In this document: positions 4,184-50,556 of the stretch, one piece after another
How positions within the stretch are numbered: position 1 is the stretch's first letter
Layout of the letters: each line of letters begins with the position of its first letter
DNA from: Spirochaetaceae bacterium
GTDB lineage: Bacteria; Spirochaetota; Spirochaetia; Treponematales; Treponemataceae
Direction of reading: 5' to 3'
Length of the DNA: 64,000 bases
NCBI GenBank assembly: GCA_017614995.1
Contig: JAGAAX010000036.1
Location: 1-64,000 of the forward strand
Program-made: the position numbers and the translations under genes
Notes under the pieces: generated by a model
What the model was told of the DNA's origin: nothing
What the model saw: the letters and a program-made list of their open reading frames with translations, nothing else
The model's database searches: none

Positions 4184-4268
4184 CAGAAAAATGCAATCTA
4201 CGCAGGTTCTTGCTTGTTACAATTTCTAGATTATTTTTTCATAGTCGTGCTTATTGTAAAAAAGTTTC

Positions 4269-4297
4269 TTGAGTTATTGGAGATTTGCTGTTATACT
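4269..4297 (+). promoter_or_regulatory. Candidate promoter of the 7TM receptor gene
   Basis: TTGAGT (4269-4274), 17-base spacer, TATACT (4292-4297). The predicted start lies about 33 bases before the GTG start codon at 4337. Confidence 0.6.
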
Positions 4298-4336
4298 GTT
4301 TTTTATCAGAAATTCAGCTTTTATGGAGGTTTCGGA

Positions 4337-15830: not shown

Positions 15831-17303
15831 ATGGTTTTTTCTTCTTCTTTATTTTTATTTATTTTTTTACCTATAGTAGTATTCTTTTATTATCTTCCAT
15901 TTATTAAGAGCAGAAGCTTTAAAAATACTATATTATTATTTTGCAGTTTGTTTTTTTATGCATGGGGTGAACCGAAATTCGTTTTTTTGATGATATTATC
16001 AATAATTTTGAATTATTGGTTTGGTAAAAAAATAAACGATTTTAATGATGATGAAAATCACACAAAATGCAAGGTGTTCCTGTTTTTTTCTATAACATGG
16101 AATATTCTGCTGCTATTCGTATTTAAATATCTGTCATTTTTCTCAAATATTTTTGTTTCATTAATTGGAAATAATGACATTCCTGTACTTGAAATAAGGC
16201 TGCCAATCGGTATCTCGTTCTTTACATTTCAGATAATGTCTTATATTTTTGACGTTTATTATAAAAAAGTGCCCGTACAGAGAAATATTTTCAGTCTTGC
16301 ACTTTATGTGTCTTTTTTTCCTCAACTTATAGCCGGGCCGATTGTAAGATATGAGACGATTGCTTCAGAAATACAAGACAGAAAAGAAACGGCTGAAAAT
16401 ATAACTAACGGAATTAAAAGATTTATATTGGGTTTATCAAAGAAGGTTTTGCTGGCAAATTATCTTGCTGTAATTGCAGACTTGATTTTTGACGGCGATT
16501 TTAATTCGCTGGTAAATTTTAACTGTCTGAATGCCTGGATTGGTGCAATTGCGTATACATTACAGATTTATTTTGATTTTTCAGGTTATTCAGATATGGC
16601 AATTGGACTTGGGTTAATTTTCGGCTTCCATTTTGAAGAAAATTTCAATCACCCGTATATTGCTTCTTCAATAAAAGACTTCTGGAGAAGGTGGCACATA
16701 AGTTTATCAAGCTGGTTCCGTGATTATGTTTACATTCCATTAGGCGGAAACCGCTGCAAAAAATCAAGAGCTTTCTTCAATATGTTTGTTGTCTGGCTGC
16801 TGACAGGTATTTGGCATGGTGCAGCTTTTACTTTCTGGTTGTGGGGCATTTATTATTTTGTCCTGCTTGTAATTGAAAAGACGTTCAACGTTGATGAATG
16901 CAAAAATATTTTTGTACGGATATTTATGCACATCAGTACAATGGTTTTTGTTATTATAGGCTGGGTGCTTTTTAGGTCAGATAACATTACTAATGCCTTT
17001 GCTTTCATAAAAAAGATGTTCTCATTCAATGAGCTCTCAAATGTTTCGCTATTTGATAATTATTACATAAAAAATGGCGGAATTATTCTGCTGCTTGGAA
17101 TTGTTTTTGTTTTTCCAATTATCAGCCATCTGAAAAAGCTTAACTGTTTTGTTTCTTCCAAATTAAGCGGAAGTTCTTTAGCCAAACCTTATAGTATTAT
17201 CATTGATGTGATTATATCCTTTACAATTTTAGCGGCTTTTACCGCTTCAATATTGATTTGTATTAAATCAACATATAATCCTTTTATTTATTTTAATTTC
17301 TGA
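15831..17303 (+). CDS. MBOAT O-acyltransferase (AlgI/DltB-like)
   Basis: Integral membrane O-acyltransferase of the MBOAT family, 490 aa with about eleven hydrophobic segments. Family motifs are FFYAWGEPKF (about 43-52), FRRWHISLSSWFRDYVYIP and TGIWHGAAFTFWLWG; the His of IWHGA is the conserved catalytic position. AlgI-type proteins pass acetyl groups across the membrane to a partner that acetylates an extracellular polysaccharide. The partner is the next gene, 12 bases downstream. A GGA lies just before the ATG. Only 18 bases separate it from the preceding terminator, so its promoter is not evident. Confidence 0.9.
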   Translation: MVFSSSLFLFIFLPIVVFFYYLPFIKSRSFKNTILLFCSLFFYAWGEPKFVFLMILSIILNYWFGKKINDFNDDENHTKCKVFLFFSITWNILLLFVFKYLSFFSNIFVSLIGNNDIPVLEIRLPIGISFFTFQIMSYIFDVYYKKVPVQRNIFSLALYVSFFPQLIAGPIVRYETIASEIQDRKETAENITNGIKRFILGLSKKVLLANYLAVIADLIFDGDFNSLVNFNCLNAWIGAIAYTLQIYFDFSGYSDMAIGLGLIFGFHFEENFNHPYIASSIKDFWRRWHISLSSWFRDYVYIPLGGNRCKKSRAFFNMFVVWLLTGIWHGAAFTFWLWGIYYFVLLVIEKTFNVDECKNIFVRIFMHISTMVFVIIGWVLFRSDNITNAFAFIKKMFSFNELSNVSLFDNYYIKNGGIILLLGIVFVFPIISHLKKLNCFVSSKLSGSSLAKPYSIIIDVIISFTILAAFTASILICIKSTYNPFIYFNF

Positions 17304-17315
17304 TAAGGAAATGCG

Positions 17316-18722
17316 ATGAAGAATCCTGTTTATTATACAACGCGTTTATGTCTGATTATTTTATTTGCTTTTTTGCTTACATATTGTCTCCGCATTTCTG
17401 CCCGCGTTTATACAAAACTGACAAAGAAAACAAACAAGATTGTGCAGCTCATTTTGTTCGACAGAGATGATTTGTCGAACAATAATAAGAAAATAGGGGA
17501 ATCATTTGAATGGTCTACATTTTACCCATTTGGTGAGCAATATCTGACAGATGAACCTATTAAGCTTGCACCTAGAAAATATTCAAATAAACAGAAGTCT
17601 GACAATTCAAAAACTCATCAAAAAAAAATACAAGTATTAAAAAATGGTCATTTGTTTGATAAAATAATTGATTCTGAAAAAAAATTGGAGAAATGGATTC
17701 CAGAAAATTGCATAAAGCGGTATTTTTTCCTTGAAAAAGCAAATTATATAGAAACGCTTGTAAAATGGAATTTGACCAATGACAATTATAATGCAACCGA
17801 AAATATAGGCAATGGTCATTTCTCAGGTTTTTGTGAAGAGATTAATGTAGATGAACTTTCCAAAAGTATCATAAGGTTTTCTCGATTCTTGAAAAATGAA
17901 AATATTCCTTTTCTGTATGTTCAGGCTCCATACAAGATTTGCAAATATGATGAGAAACTTTCCGGTGTTTTTGATTTCTCAAATCAAAATGCCGATGCTG
18001 TTTTAGAGAATTTAAAACTGAATAACGTTGATATATTAGATTTACGTGATGTTATTCACGCTCAAAACAAAAATCATTATGATCTATTTTTCCGAACAGA
18101 TCATCACTGGGAGCCGGAAACAGGATTTTGGGCAACTAATGAGATTATAAAGAAAATTAATTCAGATTATAATCAAAAGCTTAATTTACTCAAAGAAGAA
18201 GATTTTTCTTTTAAATGTTTTAATAAAACGTTGCTTGGCTCTTATGGTAAGAAAATCACAAAAGCTAAAACTGAACCAGATGATTTTACGTTGATTATAC
18301 CCAAAAAAGAATATCAAATACATTTTGAAGTATACGATAATCAAAATAAAATTGCAGATAACTATGGAAGTTATGATGCAATGATAGATTATGATAGTAT
18401 TGACTCAAAAGATTTATACGGAAAAGATCCTTATCATGGATATGGATATGGTTCGTCAAACAATTTTGTAGAAAATTTTTCGGTTGATAATGACTATAAA
18501 ATTCTGCTTATAGGTGATTCGTTTACAAATGTCATTATTCCGTTTTTGGCATTGGAAACAAAAAAAATTGACAGGCTTGATTTAAGGTATTTCGACGGCA
18601 GCCTGGAAAGCTTTATAAAGGCAAATAAGCCATACGACGTGTGCATAGTATTATATAATCCGGATCAGTATAATCAGATGCCGGGTTTTGTATCACATGA
18701 AGAGCTTTTTGATTTCAGATAA
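17316..18722 (+). CDS. DHHW/AlgJ-like SGNH acyltransferase partner
   Basis: 468 aa with one N-terminal membrane anchor (about 8-25) and a large periplasmic domain. The DHHW signature is seen in RTDHHWEPETGFWA and the Ser nucleophile in LLIGDSFTNV, the arrangement of AlgJ/AlgX-type O-acetyltransferases. It would place acetyl groups supplied by the MBOAT protein upstream onto the exported polysaccharide. AAGGA precedes the ATG. An A9 tract at about 17620-17628 lies inside the coding region. The gene ends 9 bases from the stop of a convergent gene with no visible terminator. Confidence 0.85.
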   Translation: MKNPVYYTTRLCLIILFAFLLTYCLRISARVYTKLTKKTNKIVQLILFDRDDLSNNNKKIGESFEWSTFYPFGEQYLTDEPIKLAPRKYSNKQKSDNSKTHQKKIQVLKNGHLFDKIIDSEKKLEKWIPENCIKRYFFLEKANYIETLVKWNLTNDNYNATENIGNGHFSGFCEEINVDELSKSIIRFSRFLKNENIPFLYVQAPYKICKYDEKLSGVFDFSNQNADAVLENLKLNNVDILDLRDVIHAQNKNHYDLFFRTDHHWEPETGFWATNEIIKKINSDYNQKLNLLKEEDFSFKCFNKTLLGSYGKKITKAKTEPDDFTLIIPKKEYQIHFEVYDNQNKIADNYGSYDAMIDYDSIDSKDLYGKDPYHGYGYGSSNNFVENFSVDNDYKILLIGDSFTNVIIPFLALETKKIDRLDLRYFDGSLESFIKANKPYDVCIVLYNPDQYNQMPGFVSHEELFDFR

Positions 18723-18731
18723 TTTGCTATA

Positions 18732-20387
18732 TCAATAGAAAGCGCCAAGACCGAAAGTCAATTCCCACTTGCGGTTATTTTCACGCCAACCCTTGTTTAC
18801 AAGGCGTCCAGGAAGAATAGTTCTTGCAAGGTCTATACCTAAACTTAAGCGTCCGATAACACTTTTCATGTGATATGGATGGACAAGAACTTCAAAACCA
18901 CCTGCGTAGTAACCGTCTGCTATAAGAAAATTGGTGCCTGTTTTTGGATTAAAGCCTAAAGCAACATCTAAGAATGGTGCAAAATGAACTTCCATATCGA
19001 TTTTTTTCAGTTTAGAGCCAAACGGAAAATCCCAAGCCTCAAAATCTGTGGAAAGCAGTTTTATCGGTAAATCAAAATTCATTACAAGCATATTATATGA
19101 AATTAGATTATCATTATCTTTGATACCACGCATTCTTTCAGCAAAAGTTGTTGTATTGCCTTCAAAACTAAAATACCAATAATTACGGTTATAAAGTGCG
19201 ATTCGTTTTCCAGGAAGACGGAGATCTGAATTAAGTGTAAAATAGGGTTGTGGTACATTCTTTTTATAGAAATTGTATATCCAATATTGACCGAATGATA
19301 CAGAAAAGCCTTTTTTGTATTTTCCGACCCATTCGATACGTCCGGCTCCTATTGAATGTCCGAATGTAAAAGTAGGTCCTTTCAAATCTGGATGATCAAT
19401 CATGTCACTTCTTGTACTTGACAGTCTGTTCTGCGATAAAGCTTTTATATCCCAGTTCTTTGAAAAAGTTCCAGATGGTGTCCATGTAACGGTTGCAAAA
19501 TTAGGTATAGTGCCAACTTTAACAGGAAAAGATATTCCGAAAGAATTATTAAAATAATGAATATCATTTGCATAATCTGGATTTCTGTAAAAACTATGAC
19601 TTTCCGTTAAACCTAAAGACAGATTTTCAGTTAAAGCTCTCGAATAAGAAATTGTCGTTCCAACGCTTGCATATTGGGTTTTATTCGTTTCATGTGTGTA
19701 AGAACCATTTAAAGAAAAATTCATATTTGATTTTTTATCGATAGGAACCCCGACACTTACACTTGAAGATAATGCAACATACGGTTTATAGCCTTTTTTT
19801 ATAGTTTGGCTGGTGTCAATTGAATTGTTCCAATAAATATTGTAGTCACCGACTCTGAAAGGAATCATAAAACCAGTATAAAGACCGACAATATGTTTCT
19901 TTGGAGTTTCAGCTGTATAATAATTGTATGTAAAGTCAAGGTCAAACATCTGCATTGAACCTAAAAAGTTATAATCACGTAATTTGACCTTTATCTGTGC
20001 ACCTGTATTTGAGTTTATCTTTGGATATGGAACTACAATCTTATTATGAGTTTCTGTTGTAGAAACAAGAAGTTCGACTGGTGTAATTCCAGTAGCAGCA
20101 TCTCTGTTACCATAAAAAACTTGAATACTTGTATCTTTAAAAATTCGGTTGTTGTCGAGCTCACCTCTCAACCATGACATATATTCATCAAATTCTTCCT
20201 GATCTTTAAAAATCTTATTCTTATCTATAGCAAGAGCATCATCAAGAACGCTTTCTCTTGTTATACCCTTGATGTCATATTTTACAGATGTAATTTGATA
20301 TTTTTTTGCAGAAGTTTGCGCAAACAAAAATGAAGAAGCGAATATTAGGAGAGATGTGTATATGATTAATTTGCAAACTTTACGCAT
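18732..20387 (-). CDS. Omp85-like outer-membrane protein with one POTRA-like domain
   Basis: 551 aa from the Met at 20387, which begins a normal signal peptide (KLIIYTSLLIFASSFLFAQ); the frame extends 12 codons further upstream. Residues about 27-110 look like a single POTRA domain (alternating strands around ITRESVLDDALAIDK and DNNRIFKDTSIQVFYG). A long beta-barrel region rich in aromatic, alternating strands follows, and the chain ends in FGLGAFY, the aromatic terminal signature of outer-membrane barrels. LRDYNFLGSMQ resembles the first barrel strand of BamA/TamA proteins. Usual BamA has five POTRAs, so this is a different, shorter member. It is last in the minus-strand polysaccharide locus and may help export or assembly of surface material. 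Confidence 0.7.
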   Translation of the reverse strand: MRKVCKLIIYTSLLIFASSFLFAQTSAKKYQITSVKYDIKGITRESVLDDALAIDKNKIFKDQEEFDEYMSWLRGELDNNRIFKDTSIQVFYGNRDAATGITPVELLVSTTETHNKIVVPYPKINSNTGAQIKVKLRDYNFLGSMQMFDLDFTYNYYTAETPKKHIVGLYTGFMIPFRVGDYNIYWNNSIDTSQTIKKGYKPYVALSSSVSVGVPIDKKSNMNFSLNGSYTHETNKTQYASVGTTISYSRALTENLSLGLTESHSFYRNPDYANDIHYFNNSFGISFPVKVGTIPNFATVTWTPSGTFSKNWDIKALSQNRLSSTRSDMIDHPDLKGPTFTFGHSIGAGRIEWVGKYKKGFSVSFGQYWIYNFYKKNVPQPYFTLNSDLRLPGKRIALYNRNYWYFSFEGNTTTFAERMRGIKDNDNLISYNMLVMNFDLPIKLLSTDFEAWDFPFGSKLKKIDMEVHFAPFLDVALGFNPKTGTNFLIADGYYAGGFEVLVHPYHMKSVIGRLSLGIDLARTILPGRLVNKGWRENNRKWELTFGLGAFY

Positions 20388-20480: not shown

Positions 20481-21875
20481 TCAATAAGCGTTCTTATTAA
20501 TAAAGCCTTTAAAAATCGTTAAAAAGATAATTTTCAAATCAAACATAAAAGACCAATTTTCAATATAATAAATGTCATGTTCGATACGCTTTTCTATTGA
20601 AGTGTCCCCGCGCCATCCGTTTACCTGTGCCCAGCCTGTCAAGCCCGGTCTTACCTGATGTTTCAGCATATAGCGGGGTATTGTTTCCTTAAATTGTGAA
20701 ACGAAAAAAGGCCGTTCTGGTCTTGGACCTACAACAGACATCGAACCGGTAAGAATATTAAAAAACTGTGGAAGTTCATCAATGCTTGTTTTTCGCATAA
20801 ATTCGCCCCACTTGGTTTTTCTAGGATCATCTTTTGTTGTCCATGTTGTCTGGCTTGATTTTTCGCTTTGAACTTTCATTGAGCGGAATTTATACATATT
20901 AAAAGTTTTCTGGTTCAATCCCATGCGTTCCTGTTTATAGAGAATAGGGCCTGGCGATGTAAGCTTTGTTAAAACAGCGGCAATAAGCATAACTGGTGAT
21001 GTCAAAATTATTGCGAACAATGAAAATACAATGTCAAAAGCGCGTTTTGCCATTTGTGAAATAGGGTAATCAAGAGGTATGTATCTTGTATCAATAAGCG
21101 GAAGTCCGTCTAAGTCTTCAAAAAAAGGTTTTGCCGGAATATATTCGCTGTAATACGGAATAATCAGAATCCTTGTTCCGCTTTTTTCGCATATAGGAAT
21201 TATGTTGTTTATTGAAATATAGTTTTCTGGCGCTAATGCAATAACTACAAAGTCAAAGTATCTGTTTGCAAGCACATCTGAAAGCTTTGAAAGATTTGAT
21301 AAAATTGATATACCCCAGAAATTGCTTTTCTTGTAAGTGTTTTCAGCTATAATACCTGTTATTTCATAACCCCATTCAGGATGTTTGCGTGTTTTCTCAA
21401 TAAATCTTCTGCTGAGCTCGTTTGTACCGATTACGAGGCAAAACCGCTTGTTGTAGCCTTTTTTGCGGTAAGTTGAAAGCACAAGCCTTATCGAAAGTCT
21501 TGTTGTAATTGTTATAGCTGTATTGAATATAGTAAAAAAGACTACTACATAACGTGAGAAGTGCATGATTTTGCCGACATAAAGTATTAAAGAAAATACA
21601 ATGGCGGCGAATATATTTGAATATATTATAGCTGCTATATCTGTTCCTAACGGCTTTGTTCTACGTGAGCTGTACAGACCGAAAGCACTGTATGACAGAA
21701 AAAAGACGGGCATCAACAGGAAAACCAAAAGAACTGATGTGTCAAATTCCATGTTGTTAGTACCGTTAAAAATATCAAATCTGAAAAAGTAAGCCAACAG
21801 AAATGATACTGGTACGCTCATCAAGTCAAGAAATATTTGTAATCTATTTAAAGTTTTCTGGTTTTCGCTAATCAT
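20481..21875 (-). CDS. Undecaprenyl-phosphate sugar-1-phosphate transferase (WbaP/WcaJ type)
   Basis: Starts polysaccharide synthesis by moving a sugar-1-phosphate (often glucose or galactose) onto undecaprenyl phosphate. It is 464 aa. Four N-terminal membrane helices (to about 135) and a nucleotide-binding-like middle (about 140-260) precede the catalytic domain. That domain begins at KRAFDIVFSL and contains YKQERMGLNQKTF, YKFRSM, SIDELPQFFNIL, GPRPERP and RPGLTGWAQVNG, the hallmarks of the family. It is coupled by an ATGA overlap to the GT4 gene upstream. It is the only initiating transferase in the window, so it likely starts the glycan assembled by this locus. Confidence 0.93.
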   Translation of the reverse strand: MISENQKTLNRLQIFLDLMSVPVSFLLAYFFRFDIFNGTNNMEFDTSVLLVFLLMPVFFLSYSAFGLYSSRRTKPLGTDIAAIIYSNIFAAIVFSLILYVGKIMHFSRYVVVFFTIFNTAITITTRLSIRLVLSTYRKKGYNKRFCLVIGTNELSRRFIEKTRKHPEWGYEITGIIAENTYKKSNFWGISILSNLSKLSDVLANRYFDFVVIALAPENYISINNIIPICEKSGTRILIIPYYSEYIPAKPFFEDLDGLPLIDTRYIPLDYPISQMAKRAFDIVFSLFAIILTSPVMLIAAVLTKLTSPGPILYKQERMGLNQKTFNMYKFRSMKVQSEKSSQTTWTTKDDPRKTKWGEFMRKTSIDELPQFFNILTGSMSVVGPRPERPFFVSQFKETIPRYMLKHQVRPGLTGWAQVNGWRGDTSIEKRIEHDIYYIENWSFMFDLKIIFLTIFKGFINKNAY

Positions 21876-23011
21876 TTATTATTCCAAAACTTTAATCTTG
21901 AATCTGCTTCTGAATAAGCATTCAAAACCTGTTTCTGAACAGTTTCAATTAAAAAATTGTTCATTGTTGTTTTTGCATTTTCAACAAAGGTCTGCCTTAA
22001 GGCTTTGTCTGTTTCAAGAGTTTCCAGTTTATTGGCAAAATCAGACGGTTCGTTCAAATTGAACAGAAAACCGTTTTTGCCGCTAATAATCAAGTCAGAA
22101 TGCCCTTTTACATCAGAAGCCAGTACTGGCACACCCAAAGTCATCGCATCCATTATATTGAATGGAAGCCCTTCGCTTTTGCTTGTTGAAACAACAACAT
22201 CTGACGCTAATAACAGCTCATAAATATTGCTGATAAACCCCGGTAACAGGATTTTATTTTCAATATTTAGTGCTTTTATTTTGTCTGCAAGCTCTTCTTT
22301 TAAAATTCCGTCGCCTGCAAGAATAAGACGCCAGTTTTGGTGCTTGCAAAGCAGGGAATAAAGCAAATCAACTAACTGTGTTTGATTTTTCCTTGCAGAC
22401 AATTCAGCTGCATATACAATAGTATAAACATTTTCACCGGTTATAAAGTTACGGCATAATTCCATTTGTTTTGAGTTTTGTTCTGTTTTTTTAAGATTTT
22501 CAAATTTGGGCACATAGCCGATGCCGGGGATATTTATTATCTTTTTTGCGAATTTGTATTTTTGGGCATAAGCAAAATCTTCCTGATTCATGGTCAAAAC
22601 AAGACTTGTAACCGGTGAAAAGATTTTTTCAATGCAAATAAGGGCAAACTTTTTTAAAGCAGAACTCGATTTTGAGAACAAATAGCCATGGCAGCTGTGA
22701 ATAACTTTGGGCTTTTTTAAAAGCATGAAAACTGCCGCACGTGTCATTATGCCGGCAAGTGTGGCGTTAGAAATGACAATATCGATAGATTCAGTTTTTA
22801 TAAATTTGCGCAATTCTAAAATGCTTTTGAAATTCTTGATTAGATTCTGTTTTTCAAAGACGATGTTTTTATGCACTACATTCGGAATTTCAAACTGACC
22901 TTGTGCGGCTGTATATACTTGAACTCCATGCTGCAGATAATAATCGATATATGGTTGATGAAACTGCATTATATGAGATGCCCTTGATGCAGTAAACAGC
23001 AATTTAATCAT
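21872..23011 (-). CDS. GT4-family glycosyltransferase
   Basis: 379 aa, GT-B fold. The N-terminal half has SHIMQFHQPYIDYYLQHG and a KPKVIHSCHG segment. The C-terminal half shows IVYAAELSARKNQTQLV and the donor-site E-X7-E motif in SKSEGLPFNIMDAMTLGVPVLAS. This layout resembles glycosyltransferases acting early on undecaprenyl-linked sugars. It probably adds the second sugar after the WbaP-type enzyme encoded next, with which it overlaps by four bases. The sugar is unknown. Confidence 0.9.
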   Translation of the reverse strand: MIKLLFTASRASHIMQFHQPYIDYYLQHGVQVYTAAQGQFEIPNVVHKNIVFEKQNLIKNFKSILELRKFIKTESIDIVISNATLAGIMTRAAVFMLLKKPKVIHSCHGYLFSKSSSALKKFALICIEKIFSPVTSLVLTMNQEDFAYAQKYKFAKKIINIPGIGYVPKFENLKKTEQNSKQMELCRNFITGENVYTIVYAAELSARKNQTQLVDLLYSLLCKHQNWRLILAGDGILKEELADKIKALNIENKILLPGFISNIYELLLASDVVVSTSKSEGLPFNIMDAMTLGVPVLASDVKGHSDLIISGKNGFLFNLNEPSDFANKLETLETDKALRQTFVENAKTTMNNFLIETVQKQVLNAYSEADSRLKFWNNK

Positions 23012-23026
23012 GTTTTGCCCTAAACT

Positions 23027-23818
23027 TTAATTATGCTTGTATATGGTCATCAGTATACATTTTCGGGCGTACTTTATACAAGACATTGAAAAGCCAAAAA
23101 TAAACTGAAATATGTTTAAATAATGGATCTTGTAAAGCTTTATAAAGCCGCGGAGTTCGTCTCTGCTTAAGGCGTGATAATCTTTTGAAAGCCCTGTCTG
23201 CCCGAAAGTCCGCTTGTCTGCAAAGAACACAAGTTTTTCGTCTATAAAGTAGAGACTGCCTTTTTTGCCGATTTTGAGCCATAAATTATAGTCTTCAGCT
23301 CTTTTTAAGGTTTCATCAAATAAAAGTGGCTGCAAAATGGAGGTTTTAGACATTGCAGAAGAAGTAATCACATGATTTCTTATAAGCAGATGCCAATAGG
23401 CGATTAATTTTGTCTTGCCGCTAAATTTATTTTTGACAGTGCTTGAAGTTGATACAAGCACAGCGTCTTTATTTGCTTCAAAGACTTGCATCTGCTTTTC
23501 GATTTTTTCTTTGTGCCATGAATCGTCGCTGTCTAAAAAAGCTATATATTCGGTTTTAGCCGCTTTTATGCCTACATTTCTTGCGTGCGAAACGCCAGAA
23601 TTTTCTATGGAAATAACTTTAATCTCAGGTGAATCTTCTAATGAAATTGCCTTTTCTTTGAGATTTTCTGCAATTTTAAGCGTATTGTCTTTTGAGCCGT
23701 CGTTCACAATGATGATTGATTCAACTTTAACTGTCTGATCAAGCACGCTTTGAACGGCTTTTTCAAGAGTAGCTTCAGCATTATAAGCCGGTATAACTAC
23801 GGTAACAGACTTTTTCAT
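23027..23818 (-). CDS. GT2-family glycosyltransferase
   Basis: 263 aa GT-A enzyme. The N-terminal VTVVIPAYNAEATLEKAVQSVL, the IIVNDGSKDNT motif and the metal-binding AFLDSDDSW segment are all present. About one third of the protein follows the catalytic core. It is inverting in this family. The start overlaps the stop of the GT11 gene upstream (ATGA). The donor cannot be predicted. Confidence 0.9.
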   Translation of the reverse strand: MKKSVTVVIPAYNAEATLEKAVQSVLDQTVKVESIIIVNDGSKDNTLKIAENLKEKAISLEDSPEIKVISIENSGVSHARNVGIKAAKTEYIAFLDSDDSWHKEKIEKQMQVFEANKDAVLVSTSSTVKNKFSGKTKLIAYWHLLIRNHVITSSAMSKTSILQPLLFDETLKRAEDYNLWLKIGKKGSLYFIDEKLVFFADKRTFGQTGLSKDYHALSRDELRGFIKLYKIHYLNIFQFIFGFSMSCIKYARKCILMTIYKHN

Positions 23819-24678
23819 AGCGGCAGGGAAGTCCAGTCAGACGGAATAATGCGGAGGTTCCTTTTTTCGTTCCGTTTCCATTGTTCGGGTGCGATAACCA
23901 TTTTGTTCCAGCTTTGATTGAGATAAGCGCCCCACCAGCTAAACGAGCTGTTGGCAATGATGTTGTGCCTGCACTTACTCATAAGGTACATATCCTGCCA
24001 TGCATCTTCTTTTGTGTTCCAGTCTGCAAAGATAAGCTCAATGTTTTTGTAAGATAAATTCTTCTTGCACCATGGAATATCGTCTGAAAATACTATGAGC
24101 TTGTTTATTGATTGATAGCTCTGAAGCAGATTGACTGCTGTATTGTAATAATTCAATGTGCAAACGTTAAGGCTTCTGTTTTTGCCAAGCAGATAGTCGC
24201 CGCGGCGCACATGTATTGAAGCTGTCAAATCGTCAATTTGGTCAATCATCTGCTGTGTCGAATGGTTTATAGGCCGCTTGAATCTGAAAATTTCGTGTAT
24301 GCTGTTTTTTATCGGCTCAAAGTATTTTTCAGACTGCCAGTAGCCTTCAAAATAACAGCTGCTCTGAATGTCAAAGACATTCGCATTAAAAACTGATTCG
24401 TCTTCGATGTAATGTGTCGGCTTTGTAAAAAACTTGCGCTGAACCCGCTTTATGAGCGTATTTGGAATTGTGCTTAAAAGCTCGACTGTTTCTTTAGGGG
24501 CTTCCTGCAAATCTATGTCAAAAAGCCTTGAAAGTTCGTAACCATTATGAAGCTTTTCAAAATTATATTGAGATAAATCTAAAGTAACAGATTCGCCGGT
24601 CAGTTTTTCAAGAGTTTTGGCAAACGCGTATTGAAACATCTGGTTTCCAAGTCCGCTTTTTATCTTTACAATTTTCAC
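23815..24678 (-). CDS. GT11-family fucosyltransferase (alpha-1,2-type)
   Basis: 287 aa from GTG 24678, which has GGGG six bases upstream and gives the family's usual start KIVKIKSGLGNQMFQYAFA. The donor-binding motif HVRRGDYLLGK (about 170) and the C-terminal NSSFSWWGAYLNQ segment are diagnostic for GT11. These enzymes transfer fucose from GDP-fucose, commonly to galactose in alpha-1,2 linkage. GDP-fucose synthesis genes are not in this window. A second GT11 gene is at 30334-31140 and a GT10 gene at 43270-44277. Confidence 0.88.
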   Translation of the reverse strand: MKIVKIKSGLGNQMFQYAFAKTLEKLTGESVTLDLSQYNFEKLHNGYELSRLFDIDLQEAPKETVELLSTIPNTLIKRVQRKFFTKPTHYIEDESVFNANVFDIQSSCYFEGYWQSEKYFEPIKNSIHEIFRFKRPINHSTQQMIDQIDDLTASIHVRRGDYLLGKNRSLNVCTLNYYNTAVNLLQSYQSINKLIVFSDDIPWCKKNLSYKNIELIFADWNTKEDAWQDMYLMSKCRHNIIANSSFSWWGAYLNQSWNKMVIAPEQWKRNEKRNLRIIPSDWTSLPL

Positions 24679-24699
24679 AAGATTCCCCAAAAATGACAG

Positions 24700-25611
24700 C
24701 TAATTTATAGCAGTCTTTTCTTCTTTTAAGTAATTTAAAAGGCTTTCATGCCAGTCTGGAATTGACCATGGCAGAATTTTTGCAATTTTTTCTTTTGATA
24801 AAACTGAATAAGACGGTCTTGGTGCAGGAGTAGGATATTCTTCTGTAGAGCATGGCGTAAGTATTGCTTTTTGCGCTATAAGCCCCTGTTCAAAAGCCGC
24901 TTCATTTATTGCACATGCAAAATCGTACCAGCTTATATTGCCAATGTCTGTAAAGTGATAGATGCCCTGCTTAGGTTTTTCCGACGAGGAAGAGCTGCTC
25001 TCAAAGCTGTGTGCAAAAAAAGCGAGCGCGCGTGCAAGGTCATTTGCATAAGTTGGTGTGCCGAACTGGTCATTTATAACTTTTGCAGCACCTTTTTCTT
25101 TAAAGATTCTCAGCATTGTCTTTACAAAGTTCCGCCCGTAAATTCCATAAAGCCATGCCGTTCTGATTATAAAATAATTATCAGTCTGTTTTTGAATGGC
25201 TTTTTCGCCTAGAGCTTTTGTTGTGCCGTAAACACCGGTAGGATTTATTTCCATGTCTTCTGTATATGGAACTGAAGCCTTGCCGTCAAAAACATAGTCA
25301 GTTGAAATATGAATGAGCGGAATATTATTTTTTGCCGCAATTTTTGCAAGATTCTCTGGACCAGTTACATTTATCTTGTAGCAGAGGTCTTTGTCACTTT
25401 CAGCCTTGTCTACGTTAGTATAAGCCGCGCAGTTTATGATGCACGAAAAATTGACGTTTTTTCCCTTTTGAGCCGTTATAAAATCATTAAGTATATTGTA
25501 ATCTGTAATGTCTACTTCAATTTCTGTGCCTATAAATTCAAGCTTCTCGTTTTTAAGCACATTGCAAAGCTCTGTTCCGAGCATTCCCTTGTATCCAACT
25601 AACCAAATCAT
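24700..25611 (-). CDS. rfbD: dTDP-4-dehydrorhamnose reductase
   Basis: Last step of dTDP-L-rhamnose synthesis, an NAD(P)H-dependent extended SDR of 303 aa. The N-terminal nucleotide site reads WLVGYKGMLG, the catalytic Tyr and Lys are in VYGTTKALGEKAI, and HISTDYVFDG and RTAWLYGIYG are family landmarks. AGGA lies about 9 bases before the ATG. It sits in order rfbA, rfbC, rfbD on the minus strand. No rfbB is adjacent. Confidence 0.94.
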   Translation of the reverse strand: MIWLVGYKGMLGTELCNVLKNEKLEFIGTEIEVDITDYNILNDFITAQKGKNVNFSCIINCAAYTNVDKAESDKDLCYKINVTGPENLAKIAAKNNIPLIHISTDYVFDGKASVPYTEDMEINPTGVYGTTKALGEKAIQKQTDNYFIIRTAWLYGIYGRNFVKTMLRIFKEKGAAKVINDQFGTPTYANDLARALAFFAHSFESSSSSSEKPKQGIYHFTDIGNISWYDFACAINEAAFEQGLIAQKAILTPCSTEEYPTPAPRPSYSVLSKEKIAKILPWSIPDWHESLLNYLKEEKTAIN

Positions 25612-25620
25612 AATGCAATC

Positions 25621-26172
25621 CTAAAAATATTTGTGGTTCGGGTCAAAAAAAGGTGACCGCGTATCTTTTGCAGAAAGCAGCGGTTCTGACCCAAAATCTG
25701 GCCATTTTACCGAAATAGTCGGGTCATTCCAGCGGATTCCGCCTTCATCTTCCGGATGATAGACATCTGTGCATTTATAGCAGAATGTTGCAGCGTCTGA
25801 TACAACAGCAAAGCCATGCGCAAAACCTTCTGAAACATAAAACATATTGTGCTTTTCACCAGAAAGATAAACGCCATGGTATTTTCCGAATGTCGGCGAG
25901 TTGTTCCGCAAGTCTACGGCAACATCAAATACTTCACCTTGAATAACAGAAACAAGTTTGCCCTGCGGAAATGTCTTTTGAAAATGAAGCCCGCGGAGCA
26001 CGCCGCGCTTAGAATGAGACATATTATCCTGTACAAATTCCATTGTAAGACCGGCTTTGAAAAACTCTTCTTTCTTATAAGTTTCAACAAAAAAGCCGCG
26101 CTGATCGCCATGCACTTCAGGCTGAATCTCGTAAAGCCCTTCAATCGGGCATTTTATAAAACTAAATGACAT
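25621..26172 (-). CDS. rfbC: dTDP-4-dehydrorhamnose 3,5-epimerase
   Basis: Cupin enzyme that epimerises dTDP-4-keto-6-deoxyglucose at C3 and C5. It is 183 aa from the ATG at 26172 (GGAA upstream, two bases from the rfbA stop); the longer frame from 26235 lies inside rfbA. The catalytic His is in LRGLHFQKTFPQGKLV, followed by GEVFDVAVDLR and a YKCTDVYHPEDEGG segment with the active-site Tyr region. Its length and motifs are canonical. Confidence 0.95.
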   Translation of the reverse strand: MSFSFIKCPIEGLYEIQPEVHGDQRGFFVETYKKEEFFKAGLTMEFVQDNMSHSKRGVLRGLHFQKTFPQGKLVSVIQGEVFDVAVDLRNNSPTFGKYHGVYLSGEKHNMFYVSEGFAHGFAVVSDAATFCYKCTDVYHPEDEGGIRWNDPTISVKWPDFGSEPLLSAKDTRSPFFDPNHKYF

Positions 26173-26173
26173 A

Positions 26174-27049
26174 TCAGTTTCCTTCTGCGATAAAGCGGAG
26201 ATATTCTCCATATTCTGTTTTGTATCCGCCGGCAAGTTTTATTAACTCGTCAGATGAAATCCAATTGTTTCTAAATGCAATTTCTTCTATGCATGAAACA
26301 TAATACCCCTGCCGTTTCTGGATTGTTGCGACAAAATTTGAAGCTTCATGCAGTCCGTCGTAAGTGCCGGTGTCGAGCCAAGCCATGCCGCGTCCCAAAA
26401 GCTCTACGGACAAAGCCTTTTTTTCAAGATAGGCATTATTTACAGATGTTATTTCGATTTCACCGCGGGCAGAAGGCTTTACATTTTTGGCAATTTCTAC
26501 AACTGAATTGTCATAAAAGTATAAGCCAGGCACAGCATAATGCGATTTTGGCTTTTGCGGCTTTTCTTCGATGCCTGTTACTTTTCCGTCTTTTGAAAAT
26601 TCAACTACACCATATTGAGTAGGGTCTTTTACATAATAACCGAAAATAACTGCGCCTTTATTTTTTTCAACTGAATTGTACGCTTTTTTCAATGTTTGAG
26701 AAAAACTCTGACCATAAAAGATGTTGTCGCCGAGAACAAGCGCACATGAATCTTTTCCGATGAATCTTTCGCCCAAAATAAAAGCATCTGCAAGACCGCG
26801 GGGCGCAGTCTGTACGCAATAATCAAAATTCATACCGAGCTGTTCACCAGAACCGAAAAGCTCTTGAAATACAGGCAGATCTCTTGGTGTTGAAATTATC
26901 AGTATTTCCCTTATTCCAGAGAGCATCAGCACAGACAGCGGATAATAAATCATCGGCTTGTCGTAAACAGGCAGAATCTGTTTTGAAACAGCCTTTGTAA
27001 TCGGGTAAAGTCTTGTTCCCGAACCGCCTGCAAGAATAATGCCTTTCAT
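26174..27049 (-). CDS. rfbA: Glucose-1-phosphate thymidylyltransferase
   Basis: Makes dTDP-glucose from glucose-1-phosphate and dTTP. It is 291 aa from ATG 27049, which has a perfect AAGGAG site; the frame continues upstream into the preceding gene. The nucleotide-binding signature is [12 protein letters not shown] (5-16), then [29 protein letters not shown] and the EEKPQKPKS segment. The start overlaps the stop of the membrane protein upstream. Its product also feeds the amino-deoxyhexose branch in this locus. Confidence 0.96.
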
Positions 27050-28473
27050 CTGTTTGCTCCTTTTATGTGCGTAAATATCGTGTCGAACAGTGCCACAAAC
27101 AGAGTAAGACACATCGGAATCCACCAGTTGTTAAGCTTGAATATTGCGCGTGTAATGGCGCTTATATCGTAATAGATAAACAGGAAAATCCACAGAAGCA
27201 ACAAAATTGAGATGTAGTCTGCCTTGTTTTTCTGCTTTTCATTTAAAAGTGAAATCAGCGGAATCAAGAGGAATGATGCCGTATAAGGCCACGAAAGGCT
27301 TGGAATCATAATCGTTGCAAGCGAAAGCGCAAGCAGAATGTGCCATTCCTTTTTTGAAAAAAGAACGAGATAAACAAAAACCGCAACAAGCAGAACCATA
27401 AAAATCGGGTAGAGAATATTAAGCGCATCTGGAATGTTCAATGCAAGCGTCAGCAGCGTGACAATCCGTTTAAGCGAAAGCTGCGCGGCTTCAAGCCCAA
27501 AATCGAGATTTGCCATATAACCGCTCAAAGCTTCAATATAAAGCTTGAAGCTTGCTATAAAGCCTGTTCTGTGGCAGAAAGCCGGAAAAAAGAACATAAA
27601 AAGTGCATAAACGGCACAGCGTACTGCGCTCTTAATGTCTTTCTCTTTTAGAAGCAGGACACCAAAAACGGCTGTGTAAATCTTTAATGCAAAAGCACAT
27701 GCAAGCCCAATCAGTGCAATTTCATGTATAAGCGGATCTTTTGACTTGTAGCAGAGCAAGAAAAGCATTACAAAAGCGAGCGCAGACATAATCGAATTTC
27801 CGCGTTCAAAGCCGATCATAATCGGTCTTGAAAGCAGAATTGCCAATGCAAACAATGCTTTTTGAATTTTCGTTCCTGAAATTGCAAAATAGCTTAGAAT
27901 TACAAGCGGTGCAACTGAAAACAAAAAATAAAGCTGAATATAATAGCCTGCTTTTAGGCTTGTTGTCATTGTCTGATAATCGCCAAGACCGTCCTGTCCG
28001 ATTCCAGGAAAAGTATTCCGCATAATCTGATAAATGAGCATACTTGAAGGCGGACAAATGTCTTCGCCCATGTTGATGCTTGCAGCAGAGGCCTTGAACA
28101 TGTCGCCGAAGTCATAGACACCGTCTGCAAGACCTGTCTGCCAGCGGTCAAACATAAACAGAGGCTGAACAAGCGCAAAGCTTAAAAAAACTGCCAGTGC
28201 AAAGACTGTGCTGCTTTTCAGCTCAAGTTTTTGAACTTTTGAAATAACCAGCAGAAAAAGCCCTGAAAGAACTGTAAAAGTAAAACTGAAATTGAGCATA
28301 ATTTCGCGCCAATATTCAAACTGACCGTTTACATGCCCGATTTTTACTAAAACAATATCGTAGGCAAGCTTCTGCACAAAAAGCGTCATCAGCAGAACTG
28401 AACAGGCAAAAACAAAGGCTCCGGCAATTAATAGAATGTTCTTCTTTTTAGGGTTTATTTCAATTTGCAGCAT
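27046..28473 (-). CDS. Polytopic membrane protein, GT87/DUF2029-like (putative GT-C glycosyltransferase)
   Basis: 475 aa with about ten to eleven hydrophobic helices. A short loop carrying [17 protein letters not shown] after the third helix and the [17 protein letters not shown] and [17 protein letters not shown] segments resemble GT87/DUF2029 proteins, which use polyprenyl-phosphate sugars outside the membrane. The identification is by pattern only. AAGGGA precedes the ATG. Its stop overlaps rfbA. It may add a side-chain sugar on the periplasmic side. Confidence 0.6.
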
Positions 28474-28496: not shown

Positions 28497-29375
28497 CTAT
28501 ATTACATCGACAAATGTGCGCTCATTTCTGTTGAACAGAATAAGCCCGATAAACAAAAACAAGAGCGTCATGCCAAGACTTAGCAACGTCATAAGAGGCG
28601 GTACATAACCGGCACCGTAAAACCATATTCGGAATAACTCGATTGGAGCACTTACCGGATTCAGGTAAAAAAGCCACGAAAATTTCGCAGGTGCTTCAGA
28701 AAGCGGGTAAACGACAGGGGTTATATACATTGCAAGGTTCAGGCCGAAGCCTAAAAGATGGTTCAAGTCCCTGTATTTTGTCGTTAAAGATGAAATAATC
28801 ATGCCCATGCCTGTACCGAGAAGCCCAATCCACAAAATCAAAAACGGAAAGAGCAGGGCGAGTGGCGACGGAAAAACCTTCTGCCCGATTATCAGATAAT
28901 AAATCCAGAAAACAACAAGACATGCAAACTGAATCAATAATTTCAGTATTGTACTTGCAAGATTCGAAATAACTACAGCGAGCCGCGGAAAATATACTTT
29001 GCTGAAAATTGCCTGATTGTTGCTGAAAGTTCCTGCAGAAGCATTCAGAGAATTTGTAAAAAAAGTCCAGAGCATTGTTCCTGCAAAATAAAACAAAAGA
29101 TACGGCACACCGTCTGTACCGATTTTTGCAAGGTTTCCAAAAATAAAAGTGTTGATTACTGTTGTAACAAGCGGCTGTACAATATACCAGATTGGACCAA
29201 GAATTGTCTGTTTATATTGGGTTGCAAAATCTCTCTTAATAAAAAGCCAGATTAAATCCCGGTATTGAATCAATTCTTTTAAATTGAAATCAAGTAATTT
29301 GTGTTTAGCGCTTAATTCCAAATCCCATGCAGGTTCTGCTTTTTTTTCAGCCAGCAGAGTATTAGTTTTTGACAT
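28497..29375 (-). CDS. wzm: ABC-2 type polysaccharide exporter, permease (Wzm-like)
   Basis: Membrane half of an ABC exporter for undecaprenyl-linked polysaccharide, 292 aa from ATG 29375 (GAGGG upstream). It has the family's cytoplasmic start (LIQYRDLIWLFIKRDFATQYKQTILGPIWYIVQPL) followed by six hydrophobic helices and the NPVSAPIELFRIWF segment near the end. The matching ATPase is at 49303-50556, some 20 kb away and in a different transcript, an unusual separation for such a pair. No Wzx flippase or Wzy polymerase was recognised. Confidence 0.9.
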   Translation of the reverse strand: MSKTNTLLAEKKAEPAWDLELSAKHKLLDFNLKELIQYRDLIWLFIKRDFATQYKQTILGPIWYIVQPLVTTVINTFIFGNLAKIGTDGVPYLLFYFAGTMLWTFFTNSLNASAGTFSNNQAIFSKVYFPRLAVVISNLASTILKLLIQFACLVVFWIYYLIIGQKVFPSPLALLFPFLILWIGLLGTGMGMIISSLTTKYRDLNHLLGFGLNLAMYITPVVYPLSEAPAKFSWLFYLNPVSAPIELFRIWFYGAGYVPPLMTLLSLGMTLLFLFIGLILFNRNERTFVDVI

Positions 29376-29443
29376 TTTTTCCCTCAAGTCGGTTTATTCT
29401 AACATTATGAACTTGTTTTTTCAAGTTTGCTTCTAATTGAAGG

Positions 29444-30334
29444 TTAATCTTTGAAAATGAACCGCCAGTTTGTATCTATAAAAAGCTTGTTAAAACCTTT
29501 CGCGCTCATTTTATAATGAAAGGGTACATGCTCGCAGATTATCGGCTTTGTATAGAAAGTGTTCGGCACAGGCTCTTTTGAGCAATGCGTCGATTGATCT
29601 GCACTGGCTTTTGATTTATCGATTTTTTCATGCTCAATAAGAAAAGCATTGTCACAGTGACAGTTATAAATGCTTGAAATATAAGCTTCTGTTTTATAAA
29701 TTGCAGCACCGCCGAATGCAGATAAAACCGGAATGATTAAACCGCGCGGATAACGCTTTTGAATCTGGTGAACTGTTGTTTCCCACCAGTATTCATTGAG
29801 AAATTCCGGTCCATATGGAAACTCATTTGACCTGAAAGCATATGCATCTCTATATCTCAGCCATTTTGTCATTCCGCAGCCCGAAACGCAGTCAAAATCT
29901 TTCTCTTTAAAGCGCAAAAATGTTTTGACAATCTGCTTTGTGTTTTGCAGCAGAATGTCCAAATCTATGTTGAGAATATAATCGTAGTTATTTGCGGTTG
30001 GTTTTATTAAGTCCAAAAGTCTGTTGCGGGCATAAGTTATAAGCTCAATTCTGCAAGGTTTTCCGTCTGTGGTCTGCGTAGTAAAAATTTCTGCGCGTTT
30101 TTTCTCGTCAATTTTTTCAGAATAAAATGAAAATCCCTCATGCTTAGCGGACAAAGCTTTTAAAAATTCTGTAGTTCCGTCCGTTGAGTCATTTTCATAA
30201 ATATAGAAATCGCATTTTTTAAAGTTTTTACGCAGTTTCAGAAGACTGTGCAGATTTTTTTTTAATAAAAAGCCGCCGTTTCTCGTAATGCCGATTACAA
30301 GCAGCCTTATTTCATTTGTCGATTGATAAGACAT
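29444..30334 (-). CDS. GT-A glycosyltransferase, GT69/CAP59-like
   Basis: 296 aa from ATG 30334, whose A is shared with the TAA of the GT11 gene upstream; a GTG five codons earlier is an alternative. The pattern VIGITRNGGFLLKKNL, YENDSTDGTTEFL, LITYARNRLLDL and the DxD-like NIDLDI resembles the CAP59/GT69 group. A C-terminal HVPFHYKMSAKGF segment follows. Cytoplasmic, no membrane helix. Family assignment is by pattern; the substrate is unknown. Confidence 0.65.
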   Translation of the reverse strand: MSYQSTNEIRLLVIGITRNGGFLLKKNLHSLLKLRKNFKKCDFYIYENDSTDGTTEFLKALSAKHEGFSFYSEKIDEKKRAEIFTTQTTDGKPCRIELITYARNRLLDLIKPTANNYDYILNIDLDILLQNTKQIVKTFLRFKEKDFDCVSGCGMTKWLRYRDAYAFRSNEFPYGPEFLNEYWWETTVHQIQKRYPRGLIIPVLSAFGGAAIYKTEAYISSIYNCHCDNAFLIEHEKIDKSKASADQSTHCSKEPVPNTFYTKPIICEHVPFHYKMSAKGFNKLFIDTNWRFIFKD

Positions 30335-31904: not shown

Positions 31905-31913
31905 TTTTAATCC

Positions 31914-32660: not shown

Positions 32661-32665
32661 AAATC

Positions 32666-32884: not shown

Positions 32885-32894
32885 TTTATATCTC

Positions 32895-48247: not shown

Positions 48248-49310
48248 GCGCGGCCTTCTTTTGGGTTAGGCAAGTTGTTATCCGCCTTACAAGCAGAAAA
48301 TCCATTACATAAGCTGCACATGTCGTAAAAAGCAGATAGAACGCAAAGAACAGGAACGGTTTCTCGGAATAAAACTGTGCCGGCACTATATAGCAGGCAA
48401 GATTCTGACAGAAAAGGTGTATCATATAAAATGAAAAGCTGACGCTTCCGAGCGAGACAAGCAGCTTAGAACCTGCAATTCTTGAGATTATTCCCTTGTT
48501 ATCGCCTAATGCAAAAACCAAGATTATTAACGCACATGCCGGAGCATAAAGAAAGACATACTGATATTTTATTGGAATGTGCTTTCTTATAAGCCACGAA
48601 AAAATAAGAACTGCAATTGAAATAATTTCAGCTGCTGTCAGCTGATACGTCTTAAAATCATAAGTTTTCAGCTTTTGATAAAGCAGAAATAACCACGCAC
48701 CTATAAAAAAGTGCAGTAATCGTGTAGGCGGAAAAACATTGAACACGAAATCGTCATAAGCTTTTTGAAAATGTGCAAAAAGCACAAGCGCAATACTTAA
48801 AAGAGCAGACAATACAGCAAGAAGCAGCATCGGATGGCGGCTTTTGAAAATCTTCTTGAAGAAAAACGCAAAGAAAACATAAAGCGAGAACAACGTGCTT
48901 AAATACCACGAAACTCTGTTGAATGCAAAATAGCAGTTTACGTCAGGCACATAAGAATGTAGCAGAAAAATATGCAGAATCAGATTTCTTACAGTCTCTT
49001 TATTCCAGACATAGTTTTTTGCAAAAAGCAGAAGAATTATAATTAGACAAAAAATGTGCATAGGGTAAAGCTTAAAAAAGCGCTTTTTTAGAAACGGCAC
49101 CGGCTTAAAATCGTCATTTTTCATTTTTTCAGCAAAACCGCATGAAAGCGAAAAGCCGCTCAAAATGAAAAAGAACGTAACCGCCGCCGTCGTGTCAAAA
49201 AACAAAGCTTTGCCAGCCATTTCACCTGCATAAGGCGTGGTAAAAATATAATGTCCGCAGCAAATCAAAACAGCAAAAACAAAACGCAATCCGTTAAGGC
49301 TTTTAATCAT
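48240..49310 (-). CDS. Acyltransferase 3 family membrane protein
   Basis: 356 aa, about ten hydrophobic helices. SLNGLRFVFAVLICCGHY with the conserved Arg and His, AVTFFFILSGFSLSCGF and FLKKRFFKLYPMHIFCL are the defining blocks of acyltransferase 3 proteins. It would acylate a surface sugar. It overlaps the ABC ATPase stop upstream and the ketoisomerase start downstream, so it is embedded in one transcript. Confidence 0.87.
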   Translation of the reverse strand: MIKSLNGLRFVFAVLICCGHYIFTTPYAGEMAGKALFFDTTAAVTFFFILSGFSLSCGFAEKMKNDDFKPVPFLKKRFFKLYPMHIFCLIIILLLFAKNYVWNKETVRNLILHIFLLHSYVPDVNCYFAFNRVSWYLSTLFSLYVFFAFFFKKIFKSRHPMLLLAVLSALLSIALVLFAHFQKAYDDFVFNVFPPTRLLHFFIGAWLFLLYQKLKTYDFKTYQLTAAEIISIAVLIFSWLIRKHIPIKYQYVFLYAPACALIILVFALGDNKGIISRIAGSKLLVSLGSVSFSFYMIHLFCQNLACYIVPAQFYSEKPFLFFAFYLLFTTCAAYVMDFLLVRRITTCLTQKKAAHE

Positions 49311-50556
49311 GTGTCACCTTCCAATGAAGTGAAGTATATATGTCACCCTGACGGGAAGAACTTTCACCTAAAATCTTAAATGGCAGCATTACAGTCTGAA
49401 ACGGAACAATCTCTTTCTCGTTGAAAATTCCTACATGCAGGTCTATATAATAATCACCGCTTTTCAGCAGATACAAAGGAAGTTCAACAGAAAAGCGGTT
49501 AAAGCCTGTCTGAATATCGAGCTCATCATCCATTTCTTTGAGCCATGTGATAAAAACTGTTGAATTATCAGCACGCTTTACTGCAACACAAAAATTGAGC
49601 ATAGAATGTACGTCTTTTATTTCTGCTTCAATATTGCAAGAAACAGAATTGTCTGTATGAAGAAATTCTGTTGTTTTTTTGCCGTTGTTCAAAAAATAGA
49701 TGCGTTTAGGCGTAAAGTTTTTGTCTTTTATGCTTCCGTCAGATTTCCATTCGTCGTTAGTATCTGCCGCTGTTTCAGGGCGCAGATATTGAGAAACTAC
49801 TTTTTCAATGTTGTCATTATGATAAATCAACCGGCCTTTTTCAAGAATTATGCCCGAAGTGCAGAGCCTTTGTACGGCTTCCATCTGGTGACTTACAAAA
49901 AGAATAGTGCGGCCTTCAGAAACGCTCAGTTCATTCATTTTGCCGATTGCTTTTTTCTGAAAAGACGCATCTCCGACAGCAAGAACTTCATCTGCAATGA
50001 GAATTTCTGAATTAAGGTGTGCAGCGACCGCAAAAGCAAGACGCACATACATTCCGCTTGAATATCTTTTTACAGGTGTGTCTATGTGGTGTTCTATTTC
50101 GCTGAATGCAATTATTTCATCTAATTTTGCGTCAATTTCTTTGCGGCTCATGCCGAGAATCGCGCCGTTAAGGTAGATGTTCTCTCTGCCGGTCAGCTCG
50201 CCATGAAAGCCGGTGCCGACTTCAAGAAGGCTTGCAATTCTGCCTTTGATTTTTATGCTGCCTTCTGTCGGTGCTGTTATGCGGCTTAAAATCTTTAAAA
50301 GAGTAGACTTTCCTGCGCCATTTTTGCCGATTATGCCTACGCGGTCGCCCTGATGAATGTCTAATGAAATGTCTTTTAAAGCCCAGAAGCCGTCCGGTGT
50401 GGCTTCATAATCTTTGGCTGTAAGCATAGAATGTGGGTCGTCTTTTCCGCGTTTTAACGCAAACCAAGTCTGAATATCGCGGTAAAGAGAGCCGTTATTG
50501 ATTACACCAAGATTATAATATTTTGAAAGATGCTCTATTTGAATAACTTTATTCAT
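49303..50556 (-). CDS. wzt: ABC-type polysaccharide exporter, ATPase with C-terminal domain (Wzt-like)
   Basis: 417 aa. The nucleotide-binding domain has Walker A GKNGAGKST (77-85), the signature RYSSGMYVRLAFAVA and Walker B LIADEVLAVGD. A C-terminal beta domain (about 265-417) is of the Wzt type that binds the O-antigen or its end group before export. ATPase and carbohydrate-binding domain on one chain fit ABC-dependent polysaccharide export. Its permease is at 28497-29375. Confidence 0.92.
   Translation of the reverse strand: MNKVIQIEHLSKYYNLGVINNGSLYRDIQTWFALKRGKDDPHSMLTAKDYEATPDGFWALKDISLDIHQGDRVGIIGKNGAGKSTLLKILSRITAPTEGSIKIKGRIASLLEVGTGFHGELTGRENIYLNGAILGMSRKEIDAKLDEIIAFSEIEHHIDTPVKRYSSGMYVRLAFAVAAHLNSEILIADEVLAVGDASFQKKAIGKMNELSVSEGRTILFVSHQMEAVQRLCTSGIILEKGRLIYHNDNIEKVVSQYLRPETAADTNDEWKSDGSIKDKNFTPKRIYFLNNGKKTTEFLHTDNSVSCNIEAEIKDVHSMLNFCVAVKRADNSTVFITWLKEMDDELDIQTGFNRFSVELPLYLLKSGDYYIDLHVGIFNEKEIVPFQTVMLPFKILGESSSRQGDIYTSLHWKVTHD

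Follow-up and report, generated by a model that had tools for sequence, protein, structure and literature searches.

A one-POTRA Omp85-type protein with a predicted enlarged barrel, linked to surface-glycan genes in spirochaetes

The window analyzed here, a stretch of 64,000 nucleotides from a Spirochaetaceae bacterium, carries a minus-strand run of glycan genes whose last member encodes an Omp85-type protein (Table 1). The reading frame begins with an ATG at position 20387 and continues uninterrupted to a stop codon at 18734-18732, 93 bases past an undecaprenyl-phosphate sugar transferase on the same strand, in agreement with a sequence-only reading of this DNA that had placed the gene at the end of a polysaccharide locus. 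Upstream, glycan genes run on to about 57.8 kb and include further transferases, a UDP-glucose dehydrogenase, an aminotransferase and acyltransferases, together with an ABC-2 permease that we read as a Wzm-like glycan exporter and an ABC ATPase that we read as Wzt-like. On the other side lie MBOAT and AlgX-like genes, a pair that is likely to O-acylate the glycan; an AlgX-like gene also adjoins the Omp85-type gene at three other loci (L031, L032 and L036). Past this pair come a TPR gene, IspG and a V-ATPase operon. Scanning the surroundings of the gene for promoters and terminators gave no more hits than shuffled sequence did, and the operon that we propose is therefore drawn from gene spacing only.

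Several other features of the window deserve mention in their own right. A 598-aa ORF with no Pfam match adjoins the V-ATPase operon (4214-6010). The glycan cluster contains three fucosyltransferase-type genes, two GT11 and one GT10 (23815-24690, 30334-31140 and 43270-44277), matches to glycosyltransferase families with eukaryotic names at 29444-30349 and 36980-37900 (CAP59_mtransfer, E 1.2e-11; RXYLT1_C, E 1.1e-7), and a group formed by a GNAT acetyltransferase, a short-chain dehydrogenase and a KAS III-like enzyme (31374-33938).

Table 1. Coordinates of the Omp85-type gene, its predicted parts and its neighbors in the window.
Feature	Position	Strand	Details
Omp85-type protein, putatively outer-membrane, predicted one POTRA and enlarged barrel	18732..20387	-	551 aa
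Putative signal peptide	20319..20387	-	residues ~1-23; read from sequence; helix 2-23 in AlphaFold2 model
Predicted single POTRA domain	20052..20303	-	residues 29-112; strand-helix-helix-strand-strand in model
Predicted beta-barrel, 20 strands	18735..20042	-	residues 116-551; best solved matches are Omp85 barrels
Extra hairpin, window's genus only	19629..19739	-	residues 217-253; 6/76 members; two strands in model
Hairpin in whole family	19452..19559	-	residues 277-312; 76/76 members; strands in both models
Invariant Arg-Gly of loop-6 motif (RGI/RGV/RGM replacing VRGF/Y)	19125..19130	-	76-member alignment
Last strand with C-terminal aromatic (ELTFGLGAFY)	18735..18767	-	sequence, model, alignment
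Undecaprenyl-phosphate sugar transferase	20481..21875	-	PF02397 with CoA_binding_3; directly upstream
Glycosyltransferases GT4, GT2, GT11 and dTDP-rhamnose genes	21872..27124	-	upstream, same run
ABC-2 permease	28497..29387	-	PF01061
ABC ATPase with C-terminal extension	49303..50556	-	PF00005 over residues 60-191 of 417
MBOAT O-acyltransferase	15831..17303	+	PF03062
AlgX-like acetyltransferase	17316..18722	+	PF16822; convergent with Omp85-type gene

The frame is kept over its full length, free of stops, in 44 of 59 related genomes (its own included), and is thus not a chance ORF. Its own genome holds one copy; the BamA of that genome, 807 aa long, is encoded separately on a different contig (C51). 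The N-terminus, with lysines followed by a hydrophobic run and the motif LFAQ near residue 23, reads as a signal peptide, and the model described below places a helix there, so the protein looks secreted. At the other end the final residue is aromatic in all 76 aligned members (Tyr in 70, Phe in 6). Both the signal peptide and the aromatic barrel ending proposed earlier are therefore retained. The loop-6 motif of the Omp85 superfamily is VRG(F/Y); in the present family the Arg-Gly pair is found in 76/76 members, followed by Ile (52), Val (19) or Met (5), i.e. by no aromatic residue, and the loop that carries it remains an outer loop by strand parity in the models. The 76-member alignment, which also served as input to AlphaFold2, leaves out five of the proteins from the 80 loci introduced below (L079, L089, L093, L101 and L109), most of which have odd ends.

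At a threshold of E 1e-10, relatives of the protein turned up in 92 of the 294 genomes sampled across the phylum, in some cases as weak or partial matches. Eighty named loci with a family member (the best 80 of 181 confirmed stretches, the set to which all counts out of 80 refer) carry titles that all read as spirochaetes, and the family was found here only in that group, in the order of Treponema and a few others. Distant relatives with partial profile matches are present in genomes G024, G028 and G054 (L116:3081-4700, L118 and L117:4951-6273); those in G024 and G028 sit outside the main locus.

Sequence profiles agree weakly with an Omp85 placement, and do so in the right places. The NCBIfam model Omp85_fam matches 10 of the 76 members over the loop-6 region (best E 6e-6). 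Ten members scored singly stay at or below 26 bits, where the cut-off is 200, and in one relative positions 322-464 of a BamA profile align to residues 19-173 (E 0.011). A Pfam scan of the 551-aa protein gave no match, and hence neither a patatin domain nor Poly_export (PF02563); PF01103 is absent from the Pfam families matched by any of the 76 members, and PDB sequence searches, single and by profile, returned no match. Comparison of the family profile with the BamA of the same genome gave nothing significant, the sole short stretch falling in the last POTRA region. Our searches of one open-access library turned up no description of this family, nor of any Omp85 protein with 18 strands.

The predicted structure supports an Omp85-type fold with one POTRA domain. 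In the AlphaFold2 model of the window protein (mean pLDDT 90.4, pTM 0.78), a strand at residues 29-40, helices at 45-52 and 63-78, and strands at 83-92 and 101-112 follow one another in POTRA order, and structural alignments that take in this domain begin at residues 26-30 and pair with BamA from residue 343 onward. The strand-rich domain that follows spans residues 116-547. A second model, of the Brucepastera parasyntrophica member (L054:7992-9476; mean pLDDT 94.1), which lacks the hairpin confined to the window's genus, likewise has one POTRA, at residues 25-107. Foldseek searches with the window model listed 50 matches, all Omp85-family proteins, and a second aligner placed BamA, Sam50 and TamA at Z 16-17, with non-Omp85 barrels lower at Z 13-14; over both models, the top matches are BamA, TamA, FhaC and Sam50 at Z 17-19. 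AlgE is an 18-stranded glycan exporter, and exporters of that kind are not among the 50 matches listed per model, an absence to which we give no weight.

The sequence-only reading had assigned the protein to the Omp85 family, with one POTRA and a barrel, had taken 16 as the strand number to be expected, and had suggested structure prediction as a check on both counts. The family assignment and the single POTRA stand; the strand number does not, the models having 20 strands in the window protein and 18 in the typical relative. The barrel is accordingly predicted to have 18 strands in a typical member and 20 in the window's genus. Sixteen strands are given as common to the Omp85 superfamily in PMC13067283 and PMC11116518, and because the models depart from that number we speak of an Omp85 variant and not of a canonical member. 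We tentatively read residues 277-312, predicted as strands in both models, as the pair beyond the 16-stranded Omp85 barrel, although the structural aligner often omits the first strands instead. Inward-outward residue alternation was tried as proof of membrane strands and set aside as not discriminating against shuffles.

We considered how closely the gene follows the glycan pathway outside the window. Among 59 relatives, the Omp85-type gene and the PF02397 transferase occur together in 41 genomes, the former only in 3, the latter only in 3 and neither in 12, and the resulting concordance (53/59) was reached by none of 20,000 within-family permutations. Because incomplete genomes can lose adjacent genes together, we also give the counts for the 44 genomes that are at least 90% complete: both in 33, the Omp85-type gene only in 3, the transferase only in 1 and neither in 7. 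Matches in genome G054 are weak and partial, and scoring it as lacking the gene changes the counts for the 59 genomes to 40, 3, 4 and 12. A wider sample of the order, 92 genomes overlapping the 59, gives 69 with both, 11 with the Omp85-type gene only, 5 with the transferase only and 7 with neither.

Physical distance follows the same pattern. In 21 of the 41 genomes with both genes the transferase is no more than 1 kb away; a further 6 have it within 20 kb, 3 have it at a greater distance and 11 have it on a different contig. It stands within two ORFs of the gene at 27 of the best 80 loci and directly upstream on the same strand at 17 of the 80, with a median gap of 7 bp; eight of these 17 have no further labelled glycan cluster within six ORFs. 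In another clade a UDP-glucose dehydrogenase follows directly downstream instead (14/80 loci; median gap 18.5 bp). An immediate same-strand neighbor with a glycan label is found at 40/80 loci, as compared with 39 of 262 control ORFs from the same loci, and 28/80 are without a labelled same-strand glycan gene within two ORFs. For these counts ORFs were called mechanically; the labels of clusters 1, 3, 4 and 13 derive from Pfam on one representative each, and those of clusters 14, 28, 32, 33, 40 and 51 were read from the sequences. The tie to a glycan locus suggested from the window thus extends, through co-occurrence, distance and operon-like neighbors, to several families beyond it. The link is general, with exceptions, and we consider it probable that the gene is coupled to a surface-glycan system.

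Eleven genomes of the order carry the gene without PF02397, and five carry the transferase without the gene. Neighborhoods were inspected in ten genomes, namely nine of the eleven and one with a distant PF02397. A WecA-type PF00953 enzyme is nearby instead in two of the ten (L125 and L128), and by eye a NeuB-like gene is nearby in one (L124). Also by eye, the gene sits beside purine and methylthioribose-kinase-like genes in five genomes of one genus, each assembled into one or two contigs and four lacking PF02397, and amid unrelated genes in two genomes of another genus. These two genera, with the gene, without the transferase and with non-glycan neighbors, count against a strict glycan role. 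Across the best 80 loci, the upstream neighbor is 3-dehydroquinate synthase, a housekeeping enzyme, in 27.

Two other outer-membrane routes, Wza and LptD, were searched for in these genomes. The Wza family (PF02563) exceeds the cut-off in 1 of the 59 genomes and reaches E 0.001 in 4, with none in the window's own genome, a scarcity that rests on a Pfam model which matched 4 of 14 control genomes. LptD, searched with a 987-aa treponeme LptD-like query, is present in 58/59 genomes, including those where the Omp85-type gene is absent, and in 43/43 of those with completeness of 90% or more and contamination of no more than 5%; being nearly universal, it does not explain the pattern of the gene. 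The notion that LptD is missing was dropped: PF04453 found it in only 2/59 at E 0.001, with 1 over the cut-off, and proved insensitive beside the 987-aa query.

Two small protein families are candidate partners of the Omp85-type protein. DUF6675 (PF20380) occurs in 55 of the 59 genomes and in none of the 14 controls. By eye, all 15 genomes without the Omp85-type gene have one copy or none, and 32 of the 44 with the gene have at least two. A copy lies within 100 bp of the Omp85-type gene in five genomes (G037, G038, G044, G047 and G049), and six genomes (G020, G042, G045, G048, G053 and G056) have one no farther than 300 bp from the transferase. DUF6675 is near the Omp85-type gene at 9/80 loci; its recurrence beside one or the other was also seen at L065, L074, L076, L089, L099, L106, L110 and L035. 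We found no paper on DUF6675 in the open-access literature. The other candidate, cluster 16, is a secreted-looking family of 220-250 aa (no Pfam match for one representative) present at 11 of the best 80 loci (L042, L043, L045, L050, L051, L053, L054, L056, L058, L060 and L103), at eight of which it is directly upstream of the gene; these eight are distinct from the 17 with the transferase upstream. No second conserved barrel or lipoprotein was seen to recur beside the gene, DUF6675 and the 220-aa protein both being small.

We tentatively propose that this one-POTRA, enlarged-barrel Omp85 variant acts in a surface-glycan pathway, at its outer-membrane step, with exit of a glycan or glycolipid as the mechanism, a reading to which we give somewhat less than an even chance. 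We favor glycan exit on two grounds: the wide barrel is the sole outer-membrane component that we saw conserved next to the transferase, and Wza is missing. The pathway would start with the adjacent polyprenyl-phosphate sugar transferase. The glycan would be assembled on undecaprenyl phosphate and reach the periplasm by way of the Wzm/Wzt-like ABC transporter, and the MBOAT/AlgX-like pair would probably O-acylate it. The single POTRA would then hand it to the 18-20-stranded barrel, which could pass the glycan, or a lipid-bound form of it, to the surface through its lumen or a lateral gate. The protein would work beside the essential BamA without replacing it. The most specific version of this proposal, in which an Omp85-type protein has gained barrel strands, from 16 to 18-20, has been reduced to one POTRA and is now the exit or insertion device for undecaprenyl-linked surface glycan in spirochaetes that lack Wza, we regard as possible and doubtful.

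Published Omp85 biology bears on this proposal from both sides. Characterized members are described, in PMC11116518 and PMC4104836, mainly as protein insertases and translocases, which counts against glycan exit; TAM is presented in the title of PMC11014939 as a potential conduit for phospholipid transfer, which leaves room for cargo other than protein. A protein client is nearly as likely as glycan exit. In its dedicated form, the Omp85-type protein would insert or display one particular carrier or anchor of the glycan (an outer-membrane protein, a lipoprotein or a glycoprotein), the glycan itself being left untouched. We rate this as rather unlikely: the invariance of the loop-6 Arg-Gly fits it, as does the protein-assembly role reported for most of the superfamily, and the glycan linkage fits it equally well, but no second barrel or lipoprotein was seen to recur as a client, a place that DUF6675 or the 220-aa family could fill. 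A general accessory factor in outer-membrane assembly, with a TamA-like role, would make the glycan link a matter of hitchhiking at a shared site by the V-ATPase operon. At 15 of the best 80 loci the TPR gene of the TPR/IspG/V-ATPase block is directly downstream on the opposite strand, an adjacency also seen without nearby glycan genes (L033 and L034), and the persistence of the gene in the two exceptional genera points the same way. In other families, however, the gene-transferase pair is found again at different places on the chromosome, and presence of the gene tracks the transferase within family f3 (4 with both, 4 with neither; n=8) and f4 (4 with both, 1 with the transferase only, 3 with neither; n=8). 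We judge this explanation unlikely. A relative with a 1.14-Mb single-contig genome does without the gene. In T. pallidum, TamB is reported with a BamA/TamA-hybrid machine (PMC8407342); should that relative be T. pallidum, TamB would not require the gene, which also speaks against a TamA-like role.

The enlarged barrel itself has a competitor, which we hold to be quite unlikely, in which the protein has the usual Omp85 barrel of 16 strands and the additional ones are in truth extracellular or lumenal hairpins that the predicted model led us to count as barrel strands. Strand counts are indeed taken from predicted models and not from inspected coordinates, and the residue alternation of the extra strands was reached by 238 to 883 of 2000 shuffles, many core strands doing no better. 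Against this, the counts of 18 and 20 in the two models are both even and differ by two, as the presence or absence of a single hairpin would have it, and the extra strands have lengths of 13-18 residues. The 16-stranded barrels of BamA, TamA and FhaC align to the 18-strand model (L054) at Z 17.5-19.4, but solved barrels often begin there only at residue ~137, with two strands left out, and on the 20-strand model often only at residue ~180. BtuB, a larger barrel of 22 strands, aligns to the 20-strand model over 335-339 residues at 4.4-5.0 A.

The enlarged barrel and its proposed glycan role have implications that reach beyond this locus. If the strand counts are right, a family of 18 strands, with 20 in one genus, would indicate that the Omp85 fold can widen beyond 16. 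Many treponemes have large glycan clusters and no recognized Wza, and for the route by which that glycan reaches the surface a one-POTRA Omp85 that tracks the initiating transferase across families is a named candidate, with DUF6675 and the 220-aa family as possible partners. Should glycan exit prove correct, a protein-insertion fold would provide the outer membrane with a further route for glycan, in addition to Wza and LptD.

Wza/OPX and LptD resemble the proposed system in that they carry out outer-membrane steps, Wza/OPX for capsule and LptD for LPS-type glycolipid. Their folds differ from the Omp85-type fold, and the Wza family, whose PF02563 domain the present protein lacks, is nearly absent from these genomes, whereas LptD is present as a separate gene. 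Borrelia BBJ25, described in PMC13078400 as a 346-aa protein with no POTRA, is likewise a short Omp85-type barrel from a spirochaete, distinct from BamA and reported to lie close to an export system; we considered it as a homologue and rejected it for want of sequence support (0.5 bits, hhalign probability 2%). Treponema homologues appear in that paper without their gene surroundings. The patatin-Omp85 protein PlpD, as presented in PMC11116518, combines one POTRA with an Omp85 barrel, but the window protein has no patatin domain. TamA shares the barrel fold (Z 16.2-17.0 with the window model, 17.7-18.6 with the typical member) and has three POTRA domains as opposed to one. BamA shares the barrel fold, the POTRA5-like character of the single domain, the loop-6 Arg-Gly and the C-terminal aromatic; it differs in having five POTRA domains, in giving no profile match within the same genome and in being a separate gene. 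Of the classes described so far, the BamA-like subfamily of Heinz and Lithgow (2014) comes closest; its members have, according to PMC4104836, one to three POTRA domains and always occur beside a BamA; the terms spirochaet, spirochet and Treponema are absent from the main text of that paper. The present family resembles this class in its one POTRA, its Omp85-type barrel and the BamA encoded in the same genome, and differs from it in its predicted 18-20 strands and in its link to glycan genes.
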